From: Hansfordia pulvinata
Taxonomy: Eukaryota; Ascomycota; Sordariomycetes; Xylariales
DNA: 12,423 bases
Assembly (NCBI GenBank): GCA_006538405.1
Contig: BJKQ01000063.1
Coordinates: forward strand, 1 to 12,423
Reading direction: 5' to 3'
Under the pieces are notes generated by a model. That model was not told the origin of the DNA and did no database searches. It saw nothing but the letters and a program-made list of their open reading frames with translations. The translations under genes were made by a program, and so were the position numbers. Of this stretch, positions 1-12,423 are shown piece after piece (positions within the stretch are counted from its first letter, which is position 1; the number at the start of each line of letters is the position of its first letter).

Positions 1-70
1 CCCCCCCCCGCCGCCTGTTCTGTCCTGCCCCCCTCCCTCCTCCGCTTCCCCCGTTCCTCCTTTCCTGCGG

Positions 71-98
71 CTCTCCTTCTTCCGGGTGGGGGGGGCGC
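71..98. repeat. Island with C/T motif followed by G-run (GGG-T-G8)
   Basis: Positions 71-86 read CTCTCCTTCTTCCGGG, one of about seven occurrences of CTCTCCTTCTTCYGG in the window (703, 3613, 3739 in part, 4308, 6942, 8616). It runs into GGG at 84-86, a T, and eight Gs at 88-95. The same order, C/T motif then G-run, recurs at 3613 and 6942, so it looks like the edge of a repeated element. Function unknown. Confidence 0.7.
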
Positions 99-190
99 GT
101 CCTCTCCCCCCCCTCCGCTCCGGTTTCCCTCTCCCTCTTTTGCTCGCTCCGCCCGTCCCCGGCCCCCCGCTCCCTTCGCCTCTCTCTGGC

Positions 191-210
191 TCGGGTGGGG
201 TCCCCTCGCC
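191..210. repeat. GGGTGGGGTCCCC element
   Basis: GGGG at 197-200, T201 and CCCC at 202-205 form an odd-centred palindrome preceded by GGGT. The core GGGGTCCCC occurs six more times (2653, 2886, 4608, 6828, 8386, 10390). The fuller string with TCCCCTCGCC after it is also nearly matched at about 8206-8220. It could form a short GC hairpin in single-stranded DNA or RNA. Confidence 0.7.
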
Positions 211-306
211 CTCCCTCCTCCCTCCCCTCCCCTCCTCCTTTCCCGCTCGGTGCCGGTCCTTCCGGTTTCTTTTTCGTCGCCTCCTCTCTCCGCCTCCCTC
301 TCTTCC

Positions 307-350
307 GCGGGTGTGCGCCCGCCTCCCTCGTTTCTTTCCGCGGTGTGCGT
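307..350. repeat. GGTGTGCG pair with GC hairpin
   Basis: GCGGG at 307-311 pairs with CCCGC at 318-322 across a six-base loop. The 14-mer GGTGTGCGCCCGCC at 310-323 recurs exactly at 11178-11191. A shorter related copy, CCGCGGTGTGCG, lies at 338-349. The two neighbouring copies here share the lead-in TTCCGCGG, suggesting a local duplication of about 32 bp that has diverged. Confidence 0.6.
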
Positions 351-355
351 CTCCC

Positions 356-393
356 GCCCCGCCCCGCCCCCGCCCCCGCCCCCCGCCCCCCCC
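356..393. repeat. G(C)n array with lengthening C runs
   Basis: Six Gs at 356, 361, 366, 372, 378 and 385 are each followed by C runs of 4, 4, 5, 5, 6 and 8 bases. The - strand therefore has six consecutive G-runs of four or more separated by single Cs, a textbook G-quadruplex pattern; the + strand would be an i-motif pattern. A shorter array of the same kind lies at 8516-8531, and in both places a GGTTCC hexamer array follows directly. Confidence 0.8.
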
Positions 394-402
394 TTCGCTT
401 CC

Positions 403-444
403 GGTCCCGGTTCCGGTTCTGGTTCCGGTGCCGGTTCCGGCTCC
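403..444. repeat. GGTTCC hexamer tandem array, seven units
   Basis: Seven contiguous hexamers: GGTCCC, GGTTCC, GGTTCT, GGTTCC, GGTGCC, GGTTCC, GGCTCC. In frame they would read Gly-Ser-like dipeptides, but I regard this as a DNA repeat since there is no coding context. Related arrays are at 1504-1527 (GGTTCT type), 2698-2715 and 8541-8558. Confidence 0.85.
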
Positions 445-448
445 GCCC

Positions 449-528
449 GCCGCGCTTGCGGCTCCGGCTGCTCCGCCTCCTTGTGTGTCGGCTCCCTTCT
501 TCGGCGGGCTGCGCCCGCTCCCGCTCCG
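449..528. repeat. Two GC hairpins, GCGCTTGC loop element and a 23-mer dispersed repeat
   Basis: GCCGC at 449-453 pairs with GCGGC at 458-462 around a GCTT loop; this includes GCGCTTGC at 452-459. GCGGGC at 504-509 pairs with GCCCGC at 513-518 around TGC. The 23 bases at 506-528 recur exactly at 4321-4343, and the last 16 (513-528) also at 2722-2737. Stems can contain only G:C or G:T pairs because there is no A. Confidence 0.75.
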
Positions 529-539
529 CCCCCCCTCCT

Positions 540-1433
540 GCCTTTCGCCTCGCTCCCTTTCCGGCTCTCCGCTCTCCCGGCCGCCGCTCTCCGCCCGCTC
601 TCGCTCTCTTTCTGTTTCGCTTTCCCTTCTCTTTCCGGGCCTTTTTTCCTCTCCGTCTCCCGCCCCGCTCGGCCTCTCTCTTCTTTCCGCTTGGCTGGTG
701 CGCTCTCCTTCTTCCGCCGCCCTTTTCCCCTCCTCCGTTTCCCTTCGTTTCTCCCTCCCGTGGCCTTTCCCTCCTCGTGTCCGTTTCCTTCGTTTCCCTC
801 TTCGTGGTGCCTTCCGTCTGCCCTCTTTTCTGCCCCCTCCGTCTGCTCCTCCGCCTCCTCGCCCTCTTTTCCCCCTTCCCTGCTCCCCTCTCGTCTCTGC
901 CGGTTCCCCCCCCCGCCCTTTTGTCCTCTTCCCTGCTGCTTTTCTTCTTCGCCTCGCTTCTCTCCGCTTTCCTGCCCTTTGTGCTCTTTCTCGCGGCCCC
1001 TCTCCTCTTTCTCGCTCTTCCCTCTCTCCTCGCCTCTGCTCCGTCCCCCGGCGGTCTGTTCGTTTCTGCTCTCGCTCCTCTCCCGCCCTTCTCCTCTCGG
1101 TCCTCCCGGTCCTCTCCTCCCCCCGCTCTTTGTGCTTCCCCTTTCCTGTTCCCTTTCCCCTCCCCGTCCGCCTCCTCCCCTCCTCCCGCTGCCCTTCCTC
1201 TTCCTTCCTCCCTCCTTCCTTGCGCCGTCCTTCTCCCCGCCCCTCCCCCGGCCTCTTTCCTCTTCGCCCTTCCCCCTGCTCCTCCTCTTCCGTCTGTCGC
1301 TCCCGCTGCTCCCGCTCCTCCGTCCCCTCTCCCTCCCTTCCCCTCCTTCCTGGCTCCCCTGGTCCCTCCCTCTTGCCCCCTGTCCTCCTTCCCTCTTTCT
1401 TCCCCCTCTTCCTCTGCTTTTGTGTGGGCTTTC
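540..1433. other. C/T background tract, no gene
   Basis: A long, nearly pure pyrimidine stretch with isolated single Gs. The only recurring element I see is the motif CTCTCCTTCTTCCG at 703-716, preceded by GTGCG. No array, palindrome or coding signal is visible. Confidence 0.8.
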
Positions 1434-1464
1434 CTCGGCGCCGGGGGGCCGCGCTTGCTGCTCC
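1434..1464. repeat. Dispersed GC element, CTCGGCGCCGG...CGCGCTTGC type
   Basis: Positions 1434-1458 match 8428-8451 apart from one extra base and one substitution in the G-run after CTCGGCGCCGG; both end in CCGCGCTTGC. Related copies are at 3571, 6888, 9013 and 9111. Here the element leads straight into a TTCCCC array. The GGCGCC core is self-complementary. Confidence 0.75.
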
Positions 1465-1498
1465 TTCCCCTTCCCCTTCCCCTTCCCCTTCCCCTTCC
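1465..1498. repeat. (TTCCCC)5 tandem array
   Basis: Five full TTCCCC units plus TTCC. The - strand reads GGGGAA repeats, five G4 runs with AA spacers, which is a strong G-quadruplex pattern. The array sits inside a 30-bp repeat (1452-1481) found exactly at 10001-10030, where the array is shorter. It resembles a telomere-like G-rich hexamer in form, but it is internal and I know of no telomere with this unit. Confidence 0.88.
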
Positions 1499-1503
1499 GC
1501 GCC

Positions 1504-1527
1504 GGTTCTGGTTCTGGTTCTGGCTCT
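1504..1527. repeat. GGTTCT hexamer array, three units plus GGCTCT
   Basis: Three GGTTCT hexamers at 1504-1521, then GGCTCT at 1522-1527, followed by a C8 run. It is a T-bearing version of the GGTTCC arrays at 403, 2698 and 8541. As at 403 and 8541, it lies next to another C-rich repeat array. Confidence 0.82.
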
Positions 1528-1530
1528 GCC

Positions 1531-2640
1531 CCCCCCCGCCCGCTCTGCTCTTGTTGCCTCCTTCCGCCGCGCCTTCCCTCTTGCCTCCTTCCGGTTTGCC
1601 CCCCCTTTCCCCTTCCTGGTGCCTCCTGCTTCTCTTTCCCCCTCCTTTGCGCTCCCTTCTTTCTCCGTTCCTTCGCGCCCCTTCCCTTTTTCCCCTTCTC
1701 TTCTCCCTCTCTCTCGCCGTCTGCTCGTTGCTCTTTTCCCCCCTCCGCCGCTTGTCCCCTTGCTGCCTTCGCTCCGCGCTTGTCCCTTTTCCGTGCGGCG
1801 CTCGCCCTGTGGCCTCGCTTTGGCTTCTCTTCTCCTTGTTCCTCTCCCTGCGTCCTTCGTTCCGCCCCTCCTCGCCTTTCCCCTCTGGCTTCGTCTTCTC
1901 CGCTTTCGGCGTTCCCCGGCGTTTGCCTCTCTTCCCTCTGCCCTTCCGGTCTTCCCCCGTCCCCTCCTCCTGCCCCCTTCCCGTTCTCCCTGGCCCTCGC
2001 CCGCCTCCCCTCCTCTTCGCTTGTGTCGGTGCTCCCTCTTCTTTTCCTCGCCGTTTTCCCGCCTCCGCCCCTGCTTGCCGTCCTCCCTCGTCCGCCTTCC
2101 TCTTCTTTTCTCCCTTTCTTTGGCGCGTCGCGGTCGGGGCGGGCTCTCTTTCTTCTGGCCCTCCCCCTCCCCGCTCCCTTCCCTCCTCCCGGCCCCGCTC
2201 TCCGCCTTTCTCCCTCCCTCGCTCCGTTCCCTCCTCTCCCTTTCCCCGGTCTCCTCTTTCTCCCCTGTCTTTTTCCCCTCGCGTCTGCCTCTCTTTTCCG
2301 CCTTCTTGTTGCCCCCCCCCCTCCCCCTTTCGTCGCTGCCCCGCCTCCCTTTTCCTCCTCCTTTCCTTTCCTTCGGCCCTTGGCTGCGGCTCTCCTCTTT
2401 CCTTTCGTCCCTCTCTTTTTCTTTTCCTCTCCCTCGCGTCCTTCTCTGCGCCCTCTCTTCCTTCCTTCCTCCCTTTCGTTCCCCTCGCTTTCCGGGTTCC
2501 CGCCCTTTGCCCCTGTTTCGCCCCGGTTCCTTTTGCTTCGGCCTCGTCCCGTTTCTCCCTCTTTCCTTTTCTTTTTTTTTCTTTTCTCGCTCCGCCCCTC
2601 CGCGCTCCCCTCTCCCCTCCCCTCCTTTCTCTTCTTTCTT
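1531..2640. other. C/T background tract with one small G cluster, no gene
   Basis: Mostly pyrimidine with scattered Gs. One compact G-bearing cluster lies at 2121-2143 (TGGCGCGTCG then CGGTCGGGGCGGG). A T-rich run lies at 2566-2585 with nine consecutive Ts at 2572-2580. I see no other structure. Confidence 0.75.
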
Positions 2641-2740
2641 CGGCGGGCGGGGGGGGTCCCCTCCGTGTGTCCCCTCTCCGTGTGTCCCCTCTCCTTTGGT
2701 TCCGGTTCCGGTTCCGCCTCCGCCCGCTCCCGCTCCGCCC
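2641..2740. repeat. G8-TCCCC element, 15-bp tandem repeat, GGTTCC array
   Basis: Eight Gs at 2649-2656 lead to TCCCC. Then a 15-bp unit, CCCCTCTCCGTGTGT, is present complete at 2671-2685, shortened by two bases at 2658-2670, and begun again at 2686-2694. Three GGTTCC units follow at 2698-2715, then the 16-mer GCCCGCTCCCGCTCCG (2722-2737) shared with 513 and 4328. Confidence 0.78.
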
Positions 2741-2807
2741 TCCCTCTTCGTGCTGCCCGGTTCCCCCTGTCCGCTCCCCCGGTGCCTTCCCTCTTTGGCG
2801 CGGTTCC

Positions 2808-2900
2808 GCGCTTGCGCTCCCTTCCTGCGCGGGTGGGCGGCGCTTTCGCTTGCGCCGCCCTCCCTCCGCCTTTCGCCCCCCCGGCGGGGTCCCCCCCTCC
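2808..2900. repeat. 40-bp dispersed repeat, copy 1, with 9-bp GC hairpin
   Basis: Positions 2824-2863 are identical to 3668-3707. After a one-base indel, 13 more bases (2865-2877) match 3708-3720. Inside, GGGCGGCGC at 2835-2843 pairs perfectly with GCGCCGCCC at 2852-2860 around an eight-base loop TTTCGCTT; three more G:C pairs form beyond a T/T mismatch. GCGCTTGC occurs just upstream at 2808-2815, and GGGGTCCCC at 2886-2894 just downstream. Confidence 0.88.
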
Positions 2901-3570
2901 GCTCTCTCCGCCTCCCCCCCGCTGCGCCCCCCCTGCCCCTTCTCCCTCTCTGCCTCCTGTTCTTCCCTCCGGCGCCCCTGCCCTCCGGCTCCGTTCCTCT
3001 CCCGCCCTCTCCCGTTTCCCCGTCGTTCCCCTTCTTTTTGCGTCCTCGCCTCCCTTCCTCTTCTTCCTCCTTTCGCCCCCCGGCTCCTTGGCGGTCTGCT
3101 CCCCTCTCGTTTGTGTGTTCCCCGTCTTCCCTCTCCTGCTTCTTTTTTGCCCTCCCGCCTTCGGCCCTCCTCTTCTTTGCCTCCTCGCCCTCGTTTTTCT
3201 TTCCGCCCCTGTTCCCTCGGCTCCCCTTCCTCCTGCCGGTCCCTCCCTCCTCCCCTTCCCCGCTGGCTCTTCCGGTTGCCGGTCCCTCCCCCTCCTTTTC
3301 TCCTTGTTCCCTCCTCCTCTTTCCCCTCCCCTGCCGCCCTCTTCTCTCCTTCGTCCTCGCCCGGCGGCCCCGTTCCGGTTTGGTTCGCTCCCCTTCCCCC
3401 TCTCGCTTGCCGCGCCCCCCCGCTCTCTCTCCTTCTCCGTTCTTCGTTCTTTCCCCCTCGTTTGGTCGGTCCCCCTTTCTCCGGTGCGCTCGCTTCTCTC
3501 CTGCTCGCCTGCCTTCTCCTCTTCTGCCTCCGTCCCCCTGTCCCTTCCCTGTTTCCGGCGCCCTCGCGCC
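2901..3570. other. C/T background tract, no gene
   Basis: Pyrimidine-dominated with isolated Gs. GGTCCCTCCC occurs twice close together (about 3238 and 3282), each after CCG. I see no coding or structural signal beyond that. Confidence 0.75.
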
Positions 3571-3660
3571 CTCCGCGCCGGCGCGCTTGCTCTTTCTCCT
3601 TTTTGTGTGGCGCTCTCCTTCTTCTGGGCGGCGGGGGCGGGGCGGCGTCCCCCCCTCCCT
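3571..3660. repeat. 12-bp perfect GC palindrome plus GCGCTTGC, then G-rich cluster
   Basis: CGCGCCGGCGCG at 3574-3585 is a perfect palindrome, overlapping GCGCTTGC at 3583-3590. The 18 bases at 3571-3588 match 9111-9128 with one substitution. A copy of CTCTCCTTCTTCTGGG follows at 3613-3628 and runs into G-runs of 5 and 4 at 3633-3637 and 3639-3642, a possible + strand quadruplex. Confidence 0.78.
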
Positions 3661-3667
3661 CCCTGCG

Positions 3668-3752
3668 CCTGCGCGGGTGGGCGGCGCTTTCGCTTGCGCC
3701 GCCCTCCTCCGCCTTTCGCCTCCCCTCCCCCCGCCGGGTCTCCTTCTTCTGG
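3668..3752. repeat. 40-bp dispersed repeat, copy 2, with 9-bp GC hairpin
   Basis: Exact match of 3668-3707 to 2824-2863, 844 bp away. The stem GGGCGGCGC (3679-3687) and GCGCCGCCC (3696-3704) is conserved together with its loop. Downstream, TCTCCTTCTTCTGG at 3739-3752 is another copy of the C/T motif. Confidence 0.88.
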
Positions 3753-3844
3753 CTCCGCCGTCCCGCTCCCGCCCGTTCTCGCTCTTCCCTTCGCCCCTCC
3801 GCCTCCCCTCTCCCCGTTGCCCGCCTTCCCTTCCCCTCCCTCTT

Positions 3845-4195
3845 CTCCGGGCGCTCCCGGCGGCTGGGCGCGGGTTTCGCTCTCTCCCGCTTTCCCTTTT
3901 CGGGCGGCTCCCTTTCCCCGCCTTTCCTGTGTCCCCTGCCGGTGGGCCCCGCCCCCCCTTTTGTGCGCTCGCTTCTCTCGGTCTCCGTCCGCCTTCTCCC
4001 GCCCTTCCCGCCTCGGTTCTGCCTCCGGGCGCCCCTTCCCTCCTTTCTCTCCCTCGTGCGCTTCCCCCTTCCTCCTCGTCTCTCCTCCCCTTTTCTCCTT
4101 TTCGGCGTCTCTCTTCCCCGCCCTTTTCCTCTCCCCTCCCTTCGGGTTGGCCGCGCGGCGGGTGGCGCCCCTTGCGCCCTCTCCCCCTCCTCCTT
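3845..4195. other. Mixed C/T tract with scattered G clusters, no gene
   Basis: G-bearing clusters lie near 3847-3873 and 4143-4176 in a C/T background. The second contains GGCCGCGCGG and GGGTGGCGCC, which can fold locally on G:C pairs. No exact long repeat was found for either, so they may be diverged members of the island family. Confidence 0.5.
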
Positions 4196-4239
4196 TCGCC
4201 GCCTTTCGGCCTCTCCGCTTCGTGTGGCTCCCCTTCCTG

Positions 4240-4343
4240 CGCGCCGCGCTTGCTGCTCCGGCGGCTCCGCCTCCCCCGGGTGGGTCCCTCCCGCTCTCCT
4301 CGGCGGGCTCTCCTTCTTCTGGGCTGCGCCCGCTCCCGCTCCG
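4240..4343. repeat. Composite island: GCGCTTGC, GGGTGGG, C/T motif, 23-mer
   Basis: GCGCTTGC at 4246-4253 follows a GCGCGCC context. CCGGGTGGGTCCC lies at about 4276-4288, CTCTCCTTCTTCTGGG at 4308-4323, and the 23-mer shared with 506-528 at 4321-4343. Four repeat families therefore meet within about 100 bp, which suggests that islands grow by nesting or by joining of shorter elements. Confidence 0.75.
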
Positions 4344-4599
4344 TCCCCTCTCTTTTCGCCCTCCGCCCTCCTCTCGTCGCCCCTTCGCCTCCCTTCCTTC
4401 TTCTCCGTCTTCTCCTCCTCGCTTCGCCCTCCTCTCTCGCTTCCCCTCTCCCCTCTCCCTTTCCGTTCCTGCGCCTTCGGCCTGTGCCCTCCCTCCTCTC
4501 CCCGCCTTTCGCCTTCTCGCCCGCCCCGCCCGCTCCCTTCCCTTTCCTCCTTCCCCGCGCCGGTTTGCCTTCTCCTCCTTCTCCTCCCCTCCGCCCTCC
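4344..4599. other. C/T background tract, no gene
   Basis: Pyrimidine-rich with sparse Gs. I see nothing recurring here. Confidence 0.7.
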
Positions 4600-4800
4600 T
4601 CGTCGGGGGGGTCCCCCCCCTCCGCCGGTTCCCCCCTCCTTTCCCCCTTTTTTCGTCTGTGTCCCCTCCTTCGTTTTCGTCGCCGGCGCGTCTCCCCTCC
4701 CTGTCCCTCCGCCGGTCTCCCCGGTCTCCTTCCCCTTCCCTCGGGCGGCCCTTCTCTGTCGCGGCGGTCCGCGCCGCGCTTGCGCCCGCCTCCCTTTGTC
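4600..4800. repeat. G7-T-C8 palindrome and GCGCTTGC element
   Basis: Seven Gs at 4605-4611, T4612 and eight Cs at 4613-4620 form the longest GC palindrome of this type in the window. If the first C stands for a lost A, the palindrome becomes perfect and even-centred, with seven pairs on each side of TA. GCGCTTGC recurs at 4776-4783 inside CGCGCCGCGCTTGCGCCC. Confidence 0.68.
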
Positions 4801-4919
4801 CGTTCGGTTCGCTCCGCTTTCCGCCCGCCTTGCGGTTTCCTCCTTCCTTCCCCTTTCCTTCCCCCTTTTTTCTCCTCGTCTGTTTTCTCTTCCTCCGCTT
4901 TTCTCTGCGCCTCCCCTCG

Positions 4920-4995
4920 CGCTTCCGCTTCTTTTCTCCCTTTCGCTCGCGGCTCCGCTTCTGCTTTCGGCTTCTTTCTCGCTTCCGCTTCTTTT
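4920..4995. repeat. 15-mer direct repeat at 60-bp spacing
   Basis: GCTTCCGCTTCTTTT occurs at 4921-4935 and 4981-4995, exactly 60 bp apart, with related GGCTCCGCTTCTG between at about 4951. This looks like a diverged local tandem duplication rather than an array. Confidence 0.7.
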
Positions 4996-5049
4996 GCCGC
5001 TGTTTCTCCCGCTGCTTTTCTCGCCCGCTGCCCCTCTGCGTCGCTCTCC

Positions 5050-5168
5050 TCCCCCCCTCTGCGCCCGCCCCCTCTGCGCCGGCGCCGCCGGCGGCCCCGG
5101 CGGTCCCGGTCCCCGCCCCCTGCGCCGCCGGCCCCCCCTGCGCCCCCGGCCCCCCTGCGCCCCGCCTT
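5050..5168. repeat. C+G island with CCCCCTGCGCC units
   Basis: This is the most GC-pure part of the window, with very few Ts. CTGCGCC-type units recur at about 5058, 5074, 5120, 5138 and 5154, separated by CCCGGC- or CGCCGGCGG-type blocks. GGCGCCGCCGGCGGC near 5080-5095 can fold on itself. Base content differs sharply from the flanking C/T tracts. Confidence 0.65.
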
Positions 5169-6190
5169 CGCCTCTCCCTTTCCTTTCTTTTTCTTTCCCT
5201 TTGCCTTTCTTTCCCGTTGCTTCCGCCCTGCCGTCCCTTTTCTCTCCTTTCCTCTTCTTTGCGCGCCTCTGTCCGGCTTCTCGTCCTCCCTCTTCTTTCC
5301 TCCTTCTTTCTTTTGCTTCCCCCTTCCGTCTTCCTTTTTTCTCGCTCCTCTCTCCTCGTTTTCGTCTGCCGCTTTTTTCCGCCCCTGCTCCCTTCGCGTT
5401 TCTCCTGCCCTGCGCCCTGTTCTGCCTCCCCTCCGGTGCTCCCGGTTTCGCTCCCCTCCGCCTTTCTGTCTTTTTCGCCGCTTCTCTCGCCGCTTCTTCT
5501 CTCCGTGCTCCTGTTGCCGCCGCTTCCCCCCCTTTCGGGTCTTCCTGTGCCCCCCTCCTTTTCCCTCTTTCGCTCGTCTGCTTCGGCTTCCTTCCCTCTC
5601 CGCTGCCTCTTGGTTCGTCTCCGCTCCTTTCCGTTTCGGTGCTTCCCTTTGCGCTTTCGCCCCTTCTTTCCCTTTCCCTTTCGCTCTTTCCCTTTCCGTT
5701 TGGCCTCTTTCTTTCCCTTTCCCTTTCCTTTTCTCCGGTTCGTCCTTTGCCCCTGCCCTTCCCTCCTTGCTCCCTCTTTCCTCTCCCGCGTTCGCGCTCG
5801 CCTCCTTCTCTGCCGCCGGCTTCTTTGCTGCTGTTCCGTGTTCTTTCTCTCCTCCCCCGGTCTTTTCGCTTTCCGTGGTGCGCGCCCCCTCTTGCCCTCT
5901 CCTCGTCCCCTCTCTTTTCCCTTTCTCTCTGCCCCCCCCTCTGTTCCCCTCCCTCTTCCCCTCTCCCCCGCTCCGCGCCGCCCCCCCCCCTTCTCCTCCT
6001 CCCGCCTTCCTTTCGCCTCCCTTTCTTTCCTTCCTCTCCGGCCGGCCCCCTGTCCTTTTTCCTTCGTCGGCCCCCTCCGGCCGTTCCTCCTCCCCCGTCC
6101 TTTTTCCCCTCCCTTTTTTCTCCGCGCGTCCCCCGGCGCGGCCTTCCCCGCGCCCCCTTTCCTTTCCTTTGTCCCGGTCCCGCTCCCCTG
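5169..6190. other. C/T background tract with CCCTTT microsatellite, no gene
   Basis: Mostly pyrimidine. At 5661-5735 there are repeated TTTCCC units in three short blocks, interrupted by CGCT and CGTTTGGCC. A run of ten Cs lies at 5981-5990. A small G-bearing cluster sits near 6122-6152. No gene signal. Confidence 0.72.
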
Positions 6191-6216
6191 CCTGCGGTTT
6201 CGGTGGCCTCCTTCCC
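6191..6216. repeat. 26-bp dispersed repeat, copy 1
   Basis: Matches 8241-8266 at 24 of 26 positions, differing at 6194 (G against C) and 6208 (C against T). The shared core is CGGTTTCGGTGGC. A partial third copy, GTGGCCTCCTTCCC, lies at about 6287. Confidence 0.75.
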
Positions 6217-6814
6217 GCTCCTTCTCTCCTCGCGTCCCTTCTCTTTCCTCGCGCTTGTCCTGTCTCCGTGTCCCTTGTGGCCTCCTTCCCGGCTTTCTCC
6301 TTGCCGTTTTCCCTTCTCCTCCTTGTCTGTCTCCCCTGTCTCCGCCTCCTCCTGCCGCCCTCCCCCTTCTTCTTGCTCCCCCCTCCTCCTTCCCTTTCCC
6401 CCTGCGCCTGCGTCCGGCTCCTCCCTCCCTCTTCTCGGCCTCCCTTGTCCCCTCCCCCTGTTGCGGCCCGCCCGTTCCCTTCCCCCGCTCCCTCCCCTCC
6501 GCCTTGTCCTTTCGCCCCTCCGCTGTTCTCCTTTCCCTCCTCTCTCTTTTCGGGCCTCCGCCGTCTCCTCCCGCCCCTCGCCCCCCGCCCCCTCCTTCCC
6601 CCTCGTGGCCCTGCGCCCCTCCCTCCTCCGTCTTCCTTCCTCTTCTCTCCCTGGCTCCCTCCTTGCGTGTTCTGTTCCTGTCTGTGCGCCTTTCCTTTTT
6701 TTTTTTCCGCCGGCCGTCTCGCCCTCCTCTCTCCGCCCCCCGGCGTCCCTTCCCCCTCTCCCTCGCCCTTTCCCTCTTTGCTTCGCTTCCCTCCTCCCCC
6801 GCCTCTCCCGCGTC
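6217..6814. other. C/T background tract with T11 run, no gene
   Basis: Pyrimidine tract with scattered Gs. Eleven consecutive Ts at 6696-6706 are the longest homopolymer I found. No GC hairpin lies immediately before them, so I do not call a terminator. Confidence 0.72.
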
Positions 6815-6967
6815 CGCGCGGGGGGGTGGGGTCCCCCCCCCCTCGCCTCCTCGGTGCGCTGGCGTGGCCGCTTCTCTGTTTCCCCTCCTCGGCGCCGGCG
6901 CGCTTGCGGTGCCTCCGTCTCGCTTGCTGTGCCTCCGTCGCCTCTCCTTCTTCCGGGGGGTGGGCTC
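6815..6967. repeat. G-rich island with palindrome element and 20-bp tandem repeat
   Basis: GGGGGGGTGGGG runs into T and ten Cs (6833-6842). Positions 6876-6903 match 9001-9028 at 27 of 28 bases and contain the palindrome GCGCCGGCGC at 6892-6901. A 20-bp unit is then tandemly repeated at 6901-6920 and 6921-6940, differing at only two positions (8 and 20). CTCTCCTTCTTCCGGG follows at 6942-6957 and flows into G-runs. Confidence 0.85.
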
Positions 6968-7060
6968 CCCTCCGTCCTCTCCCCTCCCCCTCCCCTCCGC
7001 CCGGCTGCGCGGTTTCCCCTCTCCGTCCGCCCCCCCCGGTGGCTGCCCCTCGTTCTTTCC

Positions 7061-7092
7061 TCGGCCCCCGGCGCGCTTGCTGTTCCGTCGTC
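7061..7092. repeat. CGGCGCGCTTGC element with 18-mer shared with 8939
   Basis: GCGCTTGC at 7073-7080 is followed by TGTTCCGTCGTC. The 18 bases at 7075-7092 match 8939-8956 at 17 of 18 positions. The neighbouring 20-bp tandem (6901-6940) carries a related GCTTGCTGTGCC, so these belong to one family. Confidence 0.72.
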
Positions 7093-7099
7093 GCGCTTC

Positions 7100-8160
7100 C
7101 GCCCCCCGCCCGCTCGTCCCCCTCCCCTTTCGGTTCTTTTTTCTTTTGGCTTCTTTCTCCTCCTTTCTTTTTTCCCTCCCTCTCTTGCTCCTTCCCTTCT
7201 TTTTTCGCTTGGCCCCCTCCTCCCTTTCCTTCTTTTCTTCCCTGCGGGTCCTTCTCTCCCGGCGCTTTTCGTCTCTCTTCTCCCCCTCTTTTCTGCTTTG
7301 TTTCGTTCTTTCCTCCTCGCCTTTCTCTCTTCCTTTCCCGTCGCCTCCCCTTCTTTTCCTTGTCGCGTTTGGTTTTCTCCCTGCGCTCTTTTTTTTCCTT
7401 TCTCCCCTCTTTTTGTTGTCTTTCCCCTCCCTCCGCGTGTCTTTCCTTTCCTTTCCTTTGGTTCCCTCTTCTCGCGTTCCCCGTCCGCCTTTCTCCTCCC
7501 GTCGTTCTCTTTCTCCTCTGCGTCGTCCTCCCGTCCTTTGCTTTCTCCGTCCCGTTCCCCCCGGTTCTTCCGCTTCCGCTGTCCGTTTCCTTTTCTCCCC
7601 TGCTCCCTCCTTCTCTTTTTTCCGTGCTTCCGCTCCCGCTCGCCTCCTTTTCTTCCGTTGTCCCGTGTCTTCTTGGCTTGCCTCCGCTCCCCTCGCTCCC
7701 CCTCTCGGCTCCGGGTTTCCCTCTCTCGTTGCCGTTGCTCCCTCTTTCGTTGGCGCGTTTCCGCTTGGCTTCTTTGCTCCTTTTTCCGCCCTTTCTCCTT
7801 TCTCCCTCGCCTTGTCCGTTCCCTTTGCCGGTCCCCTTTCCTCTTTCCGCCCCGCGGCTCCTGTCTTCTTTCCCCTCGGCGCCCCTCTCTGCCTCTTTTC
7901 CTCTGCGCCCCGCTCCCCTCTTTCTTGTCCGCCCCCTCCCCCTCCTCCCTCCTCCTCCTGCCCTCGCCCTCGTCCTCTCTCTCTCTCTCTTTTTCCCTTT
8001 CCCCCCTCTCCTCTCCTCCTCTGCTTTCCCCTCCCCTCCTTCCCCGCTCTTCTCTCCGTTCTTCTTCTCTCCCCCTCCGCCCCTCGTCCTCCCTGTTCCT
8101 CGCTTCGCTCCCGTCCTGTGTTTCCTTCCCTTTCTTCCCTTGCCCCTTTGCCTTTGTCGC
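7100..8160. other. C/T background tract with (CT)8, no gene
   Basis: This is the longest island-free segment, T-richer than the window average. (CT)8 lies at 7975-7990 followed by TTTT, and TTTCC repeats at about 7443-7458. No palindromic GC element or dispersed repeat recognised. Confidence 0.75.
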
Positions 8161-8266
8161 GGCCCGCCTCCCTCCGGGGCCGCCTTCGGGTCTCCCCTCT
8201 CCTTCGGGTGGGTCCCCTCGCCCGCTCTCTTCCTCCCCCGCCTCCGGTTTCGGTGGCTTCCTTCCC
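8161..8266. repeat. GGGTGGGTCCCC element and 26-bp repeat copy 2
   Basis: CTCCTTCGGGTGGGTCCCCT at about 8199-8217 combines a C/T lead-in with the GGGT/CCCC core seen at 191 and 4276. The 26-bp repeat (8241-8266) matches 6191-6216 with two differences. Confidence 0.68.
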
Positions 8267-8370
8267 CTCCCTCTCCCCCGCCGCCTCCTGTTTCGCGTTC
8301 GGCGCTCCGCCCCCCTCTTCGCTTCCCCTTCGCTGTGCTTTCTTTCCTCCTCTTCCCCCGCCGGCCCCGG

Positions 8371-8457
8371 CGCGGCTGGGTGGGTGGGGTCCCCCTCCCC
8401 TTCCTTTCGCTCCTTGTGTGCGGGTCCCTCGGCGCCGGCGGCCGCGCTTGCGCCGCC
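8371..8457. repeat. GGGTGGGTGGGGTCCCC element and GC hairpin with GCGCTTGC loop
   Basis: Three G-runs at 8378-8389 lead into T and five Cs (8391-8395). At 8428-8451 lies the dispersed GC element related to 1434-1458. GGCGGC (8437-8442) pairs with GCCGCC (8452-8457), and the loop is CGCGCTTGC. This is the second hairpin that displays a GCTTGC-type loop. Confidence 0.76.
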
Positions 8458-8515
8458 CCCCCCGCCCGCTCGCCCCTTCTCCTTTGGTTCCGGCTCGCTT
8501 GCTCCTTCCTCCCCC

Positions 8516-8558
8516 GCCCCGCCCCCGCCCCTTCCGTTCCGGTTCCGGTTCCGGCTTC
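8516..8558. repeat. GCCCC array followed by GGTTCC array
   Basis: GCCCC, GCCCCC and GCCCC units lie at 8516-8531, followed after TTCCGTTCC by GGTTCC, GGTTCC and GGCTTC at 8541-8558. The same order of two different arrays occurs at 356-444, arguing that the pair is one composite element. Confidence 0.78.
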
Positions 8559-8615
8559 GGGCGCTCCTTCCCCCCTTCCCCCGCTCCCTTTCCCCGTCCC
8601 CCCGCGCGGTCCCTG

Positions 8616-8640
8616 CTCTCCTTCTTCCGGGGCCCGGTCC
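8616..8640. repeat. C/T motif followed by GGGGCCCGG
   Basis: CTCTCCTTCTTCCGGG at 8616-8631, identical to 71-86 and 6942-6957, continues into GGCCCGGTCCGG, a GC palindrome-like tail. Confidence 0.7.
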
Positions 8641-8938
8641 GGCCTCTCCCGCTTTCCTCTCCCCTTTCCCTCGTCCGTCCTTTCTCCTCTTTCTCTCGGG
8701 TCCGTTCCCCCCCTTTGCCTCCCCCCCCCCTGTTCCCCCGTGGCCCGGCCTCTCCCTTCTCTCCTTCTTTCCCTTCCTCCCCTTTCGCCTGTCCCGTTTC
8801 GCCTCTCCGGCTCCTCCTTCCTCCCCTCCCTTCGCTTTGGTTTCCCCGGTCTTCTCTCGTGTGCCCTCTTTCTTGTTCTTCGCCTTCCCCCCCCCGTCCT
8901 TTCTCCTTCCGCCCCTCCCGCGCTTCTGCCTCCCCCGT
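8641..8938. other. C/T background tract, no gene
   Basis: Pyrimidine-rich with scattered Gs. A run of ten Cs lies at 8721-8730. Nothing else recurring is seen. Confidence 0.7.
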
Positions 8939-9200
8939 GCTTGCTGTGCCGTCGTCCCCCCCCTCCGCGGCTCGTCTTCTCCGGTCCCCCGCGCGCTCGC
9001 CTGTTTCCCCTCCTCCGCGCCGGCGCGCCCTTTTCCTCCTTTTTTCCTTTCTCTGTCTCCCCCGCTCTCCGTTCCGGCGTTCTCCCCTCCCTCTCTTCTT
9101 TTTTCTTCCCCTCCGCGCTGGCGCGCTTCCCTCGTGCCCCCTTCTCCGCCGCTTGCTCCCTCTCCCCCCGCTCGGCTGGGCGGGGTGGGCGCGCCCGTCC
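8939..9200. repeat. Island with 18-mer, 28-mer copy 2 and third palindrome copy
   Basis: The 18-mer at 8939-8956 pairs with 7075. The 28-mer at 9001-9028 pairs with 6876 and contains the 12-bp palindrome CGCGCCGGCGCG at 9016-9027, identical to 3574-3585. A one-base variant of the 3571 element is at 9111-9128. GGGCGGGGTGGGCGCGCCC lies at about 9178-9196 and is partly self-complementary. Confidence 0.75.
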
Positions 9201-9990
9201 CCTCCTCCCCCCTCCCCTCCTTGCTTCTCCTCTGGCTCCGTCCGCTCCTTTCCCTGGCCCCTTGCGGCCTCGCCTTCCCCGTTCGCCCCTTCCTTGTTTC
9301 CCTTTCCCGCCCCCGTCTGCCTTTTTCCTGGTGCCCCGCCCCCCCGCCCCTTCCTTCCGCCGTTTTTGCTTGCCCTTTTTTCCTGCCTCTCCCTTTCCCC
9401 TCCTCCCGGCTCCTTCGTCCCCTGCGCGCTTCTTTTTCCTCCTCCTTCTCTTTTCTCTCTCTCCCGCCTCCCCTTTCGCGTCCGGGCGCGGGTGCGGGTG
9501 CGCTTGCCCGCTCCCCCTTGCCCTCGCCTTCCCTTTCTTCGTTGCTTCCCCTCCCGTTTCCTCGCTTCCCTTCCCTCCCCCTCTCCTTTTGTCCTCTTGC
9601 CCCGCCTGCTTCTTCGCTTTTCTTCTTGCCCCCCCTTCCGCTTCTCTCCCCCTGCTCCTCCGGCTTTCCCCTCCCTCGGTGTTTGCCCGTTTTTCTTCGC
9701 TTTTCTCCTCTCTCCTTGCTGCCTCTCCTTTCCCTTTCTCTGGCTGCGGCCGCTCTCCCGTCTCTCCGTTTTTCCTGCCGTCTGCGGCGCTCCTCCTTTC
9801 CTTCGCCCCCCCGTTTTTCCCCTGCCCGTTGCGCTCTTTTCTTTGCCGTTCCCGGCGGGTCCCTTTCCTCCCTTTTTCTCCTTTCTTCTCTTTCTTGCTT
9901 TTTCTCCCCCCTCCCCTCCCCTCTCCTCCTTTCCCTCCCCTTCTTCCTGTTCCCCCTCTTTTCGCTCTTTGCCCCCCCTTTTCTCCTTCG
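9201..9990. other. C/T background tract, no gene
   Basis: Pyrimidine-rich. One short G-bearing stretch, GGGCGCGGGTGCGGGTGCGC, lies at about 9484-9503 and contains two GCGGGT units 8 bp apart. Nothing else recurring. Confidence 0.7.
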
Positions 9991-10000
9991 GGTGCGCTTT

Positions 10001-10082
10001 CGCTTGCTGCTCCTTCCCCTTCCCCTTCCCGGCCGGCGCGTTTCCCCCGGCGCGCGTTCCCCCCGGCGCGGGGGCGCCCCCC
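10001..10082. repeat. 30-bp repeat copy 2, CCGGCGCG triplet and 12-bp palindrome
   Basis: Positions 10001-10030 are identical to 1452-1481 and end in TTCCCC units. CCGGCGCG then occurs three times, at 10033, 10047 and 10063, separated by short T/C linkers. GGGGGCGCCCCC at 10070-10081 is a perfect 12-bp palindrome. Confidence 0.85.
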
Positions 10083-11170
10083 GCCCCCGGCTCTCCCTTC
10101 TGTCTCGGCGCCCGCTCTGCTCCTTTCCTTCTTCCTCTCTCTTGTCCGCCTTGTTCCCGTGCCTGGTTCCCTTGCCTCCTCCCTTTTCCCTCCCTCTCCT
10201 CCTCCCCTCTTTTCCTCTCTTCGCCGTCGCTCTCCTCCCGGCGCTGCTGCGGCCCGTCCGCCGGGTGGGGCGGCGTCCTCGCCCTCGCCTCTCCTTGTTT
10301 TCGCCTTTTCCGCGCCCCGCCCTCCCCCTTTTTTGTCCGTCGCTCCTGCCTTCCCCGTCCTTCCCCTCCCCTTCCTCTCCCCTCCGGCTGGGGTCCCCTG
10401 CCGTCCCCCCTCCCCCGGTCTCGTGGCCTGCTCTCTCTCCTGCTGCGTTCGCTCCCCCTCCCCCTGCTCCTCCCCGCTCGTCCCCTGCCTCCCCCCTCCC
10501 GCCCCTCCCCTTGCCGGTGTTCCTTTCCTCGCTCCTCCCTCCCCTGTCGCTCCTCCTGCGCCTCTTTTCCTCCCTGTCGGTCCCGCTCTTCTTCCTGTTG
10601 CCGCCGTGCCCTCCGCTCTTGTCTCCCCGTCTCGCCCCCTGTGTCCCTGTGGTGCCTTCCTCCGCTGCCTCCTCCTCTTCCCCTCGCCCTCCTCGCGTCC
10701 CCCTCCCGCTGTCCCCCCTCTTGCTTTCTTTGCCTTCGCCGCTCCCGCTGTCCTCCTTCTCCGCCCGCCGGTCCCTTCCCCTGTCCCCCTCTCTTGCTTC
10801 CCCCCCCGCTGCTGTTTTTCCCCCGTCTGTTTTCCTTCCTTCTCCCGCCCTTTTCTCTCCTTGGTTGGCCTTTCTCTTGCGTCGTCGTTTTTTCTTCGTG
10901 CTGGTTCCTTCCGGCTTTTCTTCTTTGCCTTTTGCTTCCCCCTGTCTCTGTTCCCTGTTCTCTGTCTTGTCCTCCTCCTCGCCTTTTCTTCCTCTTCCCT
11001 CCCTTCCCTGTTTTCTCGCCTGTCCCTTCCCTTGCTTCCCCTCTTCTCTCCCTTTTTCGCCCTCCCCCCCTCGTCGCCCCCTCCTCGTCCGTCTCTTGGG
11101 CTTTTCTCTCTCCCCCTGTTCCCTCCTCCCTCCTTTTGTCTTTTCCTTCCTCCTCTCTTCCTTTTTTGCC
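10083..11170. other. C/T background tract with two minor GC elements, no gene
   Basis: Two small G-bearing spots stand out: about 10246-10276, with CCGGGTGGGGCGGCGTCC, and GGGGTCCCC at 10390-10398. The rest is C/T with sparse G. Confidence 0.7.
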
Positions 11171-11225
11171 CCCCGGCGGTGTGCGCCCGCCCTCCCCTGG
11201 CCCCCGTCCTGGGCCGCCCGGTCGC
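11171..11225. repeat. GGTGTGCGCCCGCC repeat copy and GC cluster
   Basis: The 14-mer at 11178-11191 is identical to 310-323. It lies in a short cluster with GGGCCGCCCGG at about 11212-11221, which can pair locally. This is the last island in the window. Confidence 0.65.
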
Positions 11226-12423
11226 TTTGCTCCTTTCCTCTTCTTTCCGGTTTCTTTCTTGCTTTGCCGTCGTCCCCGCCCGCTCTCCGGTTCTCCTTTT
11301 TCTTTGCCCCCTCGCCTCCGCCTCCGCCCCCCCCGCTCCTCCCTGCTTCTTCCCCTCCTCCGTTCCTTCCTCGTGCCCTGCCTCTTTCTCTCTTTCTCTC
11401 TCTCCTGCTTTCCTCTCTTCTTCCTTCCTTGGTTCCCTCTCTTTTCTGCTCTTCCTTTCCCTTTCTTCCGTTCCGCCCCTTTCGTCTTCCTTCCTTTTTC
11501 GCCCCTCTTCCCCGCTCCGCCTTTTTCTCTTTCCTTTTTTCCCCTTCCCCTTCCCTCGTTTTTCTTTCCGCCCCTCGGCCCGCCCTGCGTCTGGCGCGCT
11601 CCCTCCTCTCCCTCCTTGTTGCGCTTTCCTCCCTGCCCCTCCCCCTCTCTTCCCGCTCCCTCCTGCCCTCCTTGTTCCTTCTTCCGTGGTTTGCGCTGTT
11701 TCGGCCCCTGCTTTGCTCTCTGTTTTCCCTGTTCTGCCTTTCCCCGCCTCCGTTGCGTCGCGTCTCTGCGGTTCCCTTTTTTCTTCGCGCTCCTCCTTTC
11801 CTTCGCGCCCCCCCGCCTCCCCCGTTCCCTGCTGCTTTCCTTCTTTGTTTTCCCTTTTTTCCTCTGTCGTTTCCGCTGGCGTCTTTCCCCCTTTGTCCCG
11901 CCGTCGTCCCCGCCTCCCGCCCGTTCCGCGGCCTCCCTCTTTCCCCTCCGGCTGTCCGCCGCCTCCGCCCCGCTGCTGGCCTCCTCTCGGCTCCCCCCCC
12001 CTGTTTTCCCGCCTGCTGTCTTCCCCTTTTCTCTCTGTTCCCCCCCTCGTTCTCCCCTTTCTTTCTCCCCCTCTTCCTCTCTTGTTCGGCCCTTTCTCTC
12101 TCCTCCTTGCCCCGCTCCTTCCGGCCGCCCCGGTTCCCTTCTCCCCCTCCTTGTCCCTCCCGCTCCTCCGTCCTTCGGCGTCCCGTCTCTGCCCGTTTTC
12201 CCTCCTTTCTCTTCCCTCCTCTGCTCCTCCTCCTTTCCTTGCCTTTTTTCGCCCTTTGCCTCCTTTCCCGCCGGCCGTTTTCGTTTCCGGCTCCCCCTGG
12301 TCCCGCTCCTCCTCCTCCTCCGGCTGTCCTCCCCCCCTCCTCCCCTCCCGCTCCTTTGTGTCCTTTCCTCCCCCGGTGTTCTCCTCTTCCCCCTCGTTGT
12401 CCTCCCGTTCCTCGCCCCTCCTC
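11226..12423. other. C/T background tract to window end, no gene
   Basis: Pyrimidine-rich tract with isolated Gs and short CTC and TTTC microsatellite-like runs (for example CTTTCTCTCTTTCTCTCTCT near 11384-11403). No GC palindromes, arrays or dispersed repeats recognised. Confidence 0.72.

Follow-up and report, generated by a model that had tools for sequence, protein, structure and literature searches.

The window analyzed here is a stretch of 12,423 nucleotides from the ascomycete Hansfordia pulvinata (contig BJKQ01000063.1 of assembly GCA_006538405.1) and comprises the entire contig C63; the assembly has 63 contigs, with a total length of 46,805,188 bases. The A-free text of the window gave zero Rfam matches at gathering thresholds. 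Its features were placed through four-letter copies of the same sequence in two other contigs, C37 and C62:

1-12423, plus strand: all of contig C63, mitochondrial DNA in which A appears as C, as judged from alignment to the minus strand of the four-letter C37:50072-62733
703-7370, plus strand: portion with a four-letter copy in C62:5969-12751, aligned with A as C in two pieces: 4,036 columns at 97.9% with 2 mismatches, and 2,752 columns at 98.2% with 0 mismatches
1653-1990, minus strand: place of a group I intron that is matched in the four-letter copy and unrecognisable in the window (Rfam RF00028 on L010:6938-7281, C62, mapped by alignment)
2266-2557, minus strand: place of a second group I intron matched in the four-letter copy (Rfam RF00028 on L010:7559-7855, C62, mapped by alignment)
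4409-4475, minus strand: place of a tRNA matched in the four-letter copy (Rfam RF00005 on L010:9743-9810, C62, mapped by alignment)
4848-6652, minus strand: position of an open frame that spans 610 codons in the four-letter copy (L021:192-2024 minus, C62, table 4), the first part of which, at about window 6370-6640, is a cox1 exon

The cox1 exon corresponds to a Pfam COX1 domain (PF00115) at residues 5-98 of the 610-codon frame, with an E-value of 5.7e-31. The part of C62 that matches the window includes this exon in the mould mitochondrial code, one tRNA and two group I introns, while the remainder of the C62 stretch examined carries nad6, six tRNAs and the end of the SSU rRNA, bringing the tRNAs of C62 to seven in all. 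C37 is 99,430 bases long and contains the same C62 stretch twice, 69.85 kb apart, a spacing consistent with more than one pass around a circular mitochondrial genome. To judge from these comparisons, contig C63 is unremarkable DNA from the sequenced organism's mitochondrial genome, collinear with the four-letter C37. Genome size, the mould mitochondrial code and introns, together with the fungal rDNA primers located in C58 (see below), point to a fungus, probably a filamentous one. C62 and C37 differ in how their parts are connected: the first part of C62 corresponds to C37:6835-10435 in plus orientation, and the second follows the minus strand of C37 from about 62005 down. A chimera is one possible explanation of C62, a rearranged form of the mitochondrial genome another. 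The same C62 stretch is repeated once more in each of the contigs C54 and C51. Within C37, the stretch at about 90870-91190 (L031; L035, L036) is matched by the end of C44 and the start of C56, in both cases in an orientation contrary to that predicted by their other matches; this would look like the inversion of a segment from one molecule to another.

The base count confirms what the initial annotation had reported as the most striking property of the window: there is not a single A in positions 1-12423, and the text consists of 6,181 C (49.8%), 4,198 T (33.8%) and 2,044 G (16.5%). The share of T is over one third, as had been claimed, while that of G was put too low, at about 11%. A comparison with the source record, proposed as a check, found no difference between the window and the stored contig (G000:C63) in the 10,000 bases that it covered. 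Taking the share of A as 0.32, the log10 probability of encountering no A by chance in 12,423 bases is about -2081, which rules out chance as the cause. A single strand of ordinary DNA contains about as much A as T and about as much C as G, and a merger of A into C is therefore expected to produce as much C as G and T combined. The window fits this expectation: 6,181 C stand against 6,242 G and T, an agreement within about 1%, and the 12 complete 1-kb segments each hold 456 to 520 C per 1,000, again close to G + T. Dinucleotides follow the same parity, with 3,034 CC against 3,096 for all pairs of G and T summed. The text of the window is thus that of ordinary DNA of about 33% GC in which A has been merged into C; the base counts do not fit a merger of A into G or into T.

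The same conversion is apparent base by base in the alignment. When A is read as C, the alignment to C37:50072-62733 (minus strand) extends over the full 12,423 bases of the window, with 97.94% identity over 12,671 columns, 4 mismatches and 218 gap openings. The C37 copy contains 4,062 true A, of which 3,910 appear as C in the window, 1 appears as G and 151 are deleted—C occupies 3,910 of the 3,911 retained A positions. The other bases are kept, with 3 substitutions in 8,503 retained C, G and T: 2,266 of the 2,349 true C are read as C, 2 are read otherwise and 81 are deleted; the 2,047 true G include 5 deleted and 1 turned into C; and 11 of the 4,204 true T are deleted. Relative to C37, the window contains 9 inserted bases and lacks 248, of which 232 are A or C. 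The window and the mitochondrial contig C37 of the same assembly are therefore the same sequence from end to end once A is C, and differ in that the window's A are all C and its A/C runs are shortened. The first 10,000 bases of C62 also share 1,979 different 40-base words with the window on the same strand, with A as C. Other treatments of the reference (A to G, A to T, no merge, or deletion of A) reached at best about 67-69% identity between the window and the C37 minus strand, and merges of G or T gave zero matches with the window. The reversed window produced only short matches to C37, the best of them 36-52 columns long.

The view that neither mutation bias nor a natural polypyrimidine tract can give an A-free window is borne out by this four-letter copy, which lies in the same assembly and differs by 4 mismatches. 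A designed three-letter construct, or a natural tract under extreme bias, would account for the use of three letters only, but is contradicted by the end-to-end match to the organism's own mitochondrial contig, and its probability is negligible.

Long-read base calling errs in homopolymers by deletions that rise with run length, and the deletions of the window likewise grow with run length. The difference lies in the affected runs, which belong to a merged A/C class that includes mixed runs, and in the fact that whole contigs are hit. Relative to C37, 98 of the 484 mixed A/C runs of 3-6 nt are shortened, compared with 5 of 464 T or G runs of the same lengths. In a control comparison of the four-letter C62 to C37, shortening affects 2 of 262 mixed A/C runs, and also 3 of 13 pure-A runs of 5-6 nt. 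Pure runs of 3-6 nt in the window are shortened at similar rates whether they consist of true C (8/33) or of A (40/192; p 0.65), which points to a fault in the A/C class rather than in adenine alone. Since a mixed A/C run is not a homopolymer in real DNA and is shortened as if it were one, A and C must already have been merged into a single symbol by the time of consensus building; a later swap in the text is therefore disfavoured. The equality of A and C is not full: among runs of 5-6 nt, shortening is less frequent in mixed A/C runs (71/130) than in pure-A runs (23/27; p 0.004). Some distinction between A and C, or an additional effect of homopolymers, thus persists.

These observations bear on a plain change of text, one of the causes initially proposed. 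A text or polishing fault that replaced A by C in finished contigs would agree with the nearly perfect conversion of the retained A positions, but run lengths are not left unchanged apart from ordinary homopolymer error, as a text substitution would leave them: mixed A/C runs shed bases like homopolymers, at a rate far above that of the C62 control. Such a fault also gives no account of why mitochondrial and rDNA-like contigs are affected, with opposite strands present at each locus (see below), and we consider it very unlikely.

To place the window among its neighbours, we judged 62 of the 63 contigs, using the initial 300 bases for most and 10,000 bases for some. C63, C62, C60 and C58 were covered beyond such partial sampling; elsewhere, inner stretches without A or without T are possible. 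The first 300 bases of C12 (L074, C12:1-300) are N throughout, representing a gap or a withheld stretch. Within the sampled stretches 5 of 62 contigs lack A, namely C44, C55, C56, C58 and C63 (for the first four, L026, L029, L034-L037, L014, L022 and L092), apart from a lone A among the initial 300 bases of C44; no T-less stretch is present in the sampled stretches of the 62 contigs. Several other contigs (C61, C59, C57, C50 and C20; L011, L013, L015, L016 and L019) include very AT-rich stretches, with 20-23% GC compared with 55-64% in the large sampled contigs. The 13.6-kb contig C60 (L012, L023) uses all four letters, has about 50% GC in the counted part, and displays no Rfam match and no match to the A-less contigs.

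The A-less contigs are of two kinds: C44, C56 and C63 are mitochondrial, and C55 and C58 are rDNA-like. C44 represents the opposite mitochondrial strand in part of the window's region, with 0 mismatches in 4,346 and 3,565 columns of two overlapping pieces; compared with the window directly in a two-letter code, these pieces reach 96.7% and 96.6%, with 7 mismatches each. In C56, the initial 300 bases match mitochondrial sequence at 94.9% (3 mismatches in 313 columns), and further matches at 68% lie within this contig. C58 repeats after about 8.46 kb, and its minus strand contains 7 of 10 rDNA primers in gene order—NS1, NS5, NS7, ITS3, ITS4, LR0R and LR5, with at most 1 mismatch—while NS3, ITS1 and LR7 were not found in it. 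The rDNA nature of C58 is judged by these ten fungal primers; none of the ten was found in shuffled C58 or in the window. For C55, the initial 300 bases agree with C58 at 94.9% on its opposite strand (1 mismatch in 312 columns) and at only 74% on the same strand. Both strands therefore occur without A at each locus: C63 and C44 in the mitochondrial case, and C58 and the first 300 bases of C55 in the rDNA-like case. The five contigs, 130,314 bases in sum, are probably spurious second copies, with C55 and C56 judged mainly on short stretches.

The presence of opposite-strand contigs at both loci also answers the objection that a loss of A at the level of reads should disturb T. This does not hold for reads in which A has become C, since they overlap well only with like reads of the same orientation, and the two orientations assemble apart. 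An extraordinary DNA, with adenine replaced or modified throughout and read as C, would likewise affect opposite strands and more than one locus. However, normal four-letter copies of the same mitochondrial sequence are present in the same assembly, and runs of true C are as affected as runs of A; we regard such DNA as extremely improbable. Among the causes first suggested, a fault in the reading or writing of the strand thus stands as a candidate, whereas a designed construct and an extraordinary DNA give way to the four-letter copy in the same assembly.

The most probable reading, to which we assign a probability of roughly 87%, is that C63 is a technical artefact: mitochondrial DNA put together from long reads that had both A and C called as C and that made up a minority of the long reads. 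In these reads A and C would have been indistinct to the base caller. Such A-less reads would overlap poorly with normal reads, and equally poorly with A-less reads of the other orientation, and would group with their own orientation only, giving rise to a separate A-less contig for each strand. Depth would be sufficient for an A-less assembly only in DNA of very high copy number, such as mitochondrial and ribosomal DNA. Grouping of A-to-C reads by orientation, together with high copy number, would explain the choice of loci, the opposite-strand pairs, the occurrence of A-less and not T-less text, and the shortening of runs. One guess at the platform is an instrument of the PacBio type, with single-molecule fluorescence in which A and C would be near in colour or brightness.

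The same contigs would be expected if a fault of conversion or of software had changed A to C in the text of a subset of the read files before assembly, and these had then been assembled normally: A and C would again be merged before the consensus, the strands would fall into separate contigs, and only high-copy loci would be affected. This requires a fault that spared most reads, and the same data fit a base-calling fault equally. We consider altered read files unlikely, though less so than a fault in finished contigs, and judge the base calling of whole reads to be the likelier place of the fault.

No paper on A-less contigs or A/C collapse, and no source for dye colours, was found among the matches listed from the open-licence literature. 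In PMC12401588, the term 'base-calling artifact' refers to short nanopore reads with odd quality values, which differs from a merger of A and C. Two 16S patterns with A written as C gave no match in the prokaryote genome collection, a result that concerns one locus and is no proof of rarity.

The explanation by miscalled reads would settle a very strange assembly sequence as a reading error. It also suggests a simple screen for contigs of this kind: a search for C = G + T per kilobase, followed by alignment with A as C. We put forward tentatively, and with some doubt, that the window exemplifies a failure of some long-read platform that has received little notice, in which A and C collapse into one class throughout whole reads, and which would recur in public assemblies as A-less organelle or rDNA contigs that pass for new sequence and could be found by the same parity. 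The case of C63 itself is of use as a quality check.
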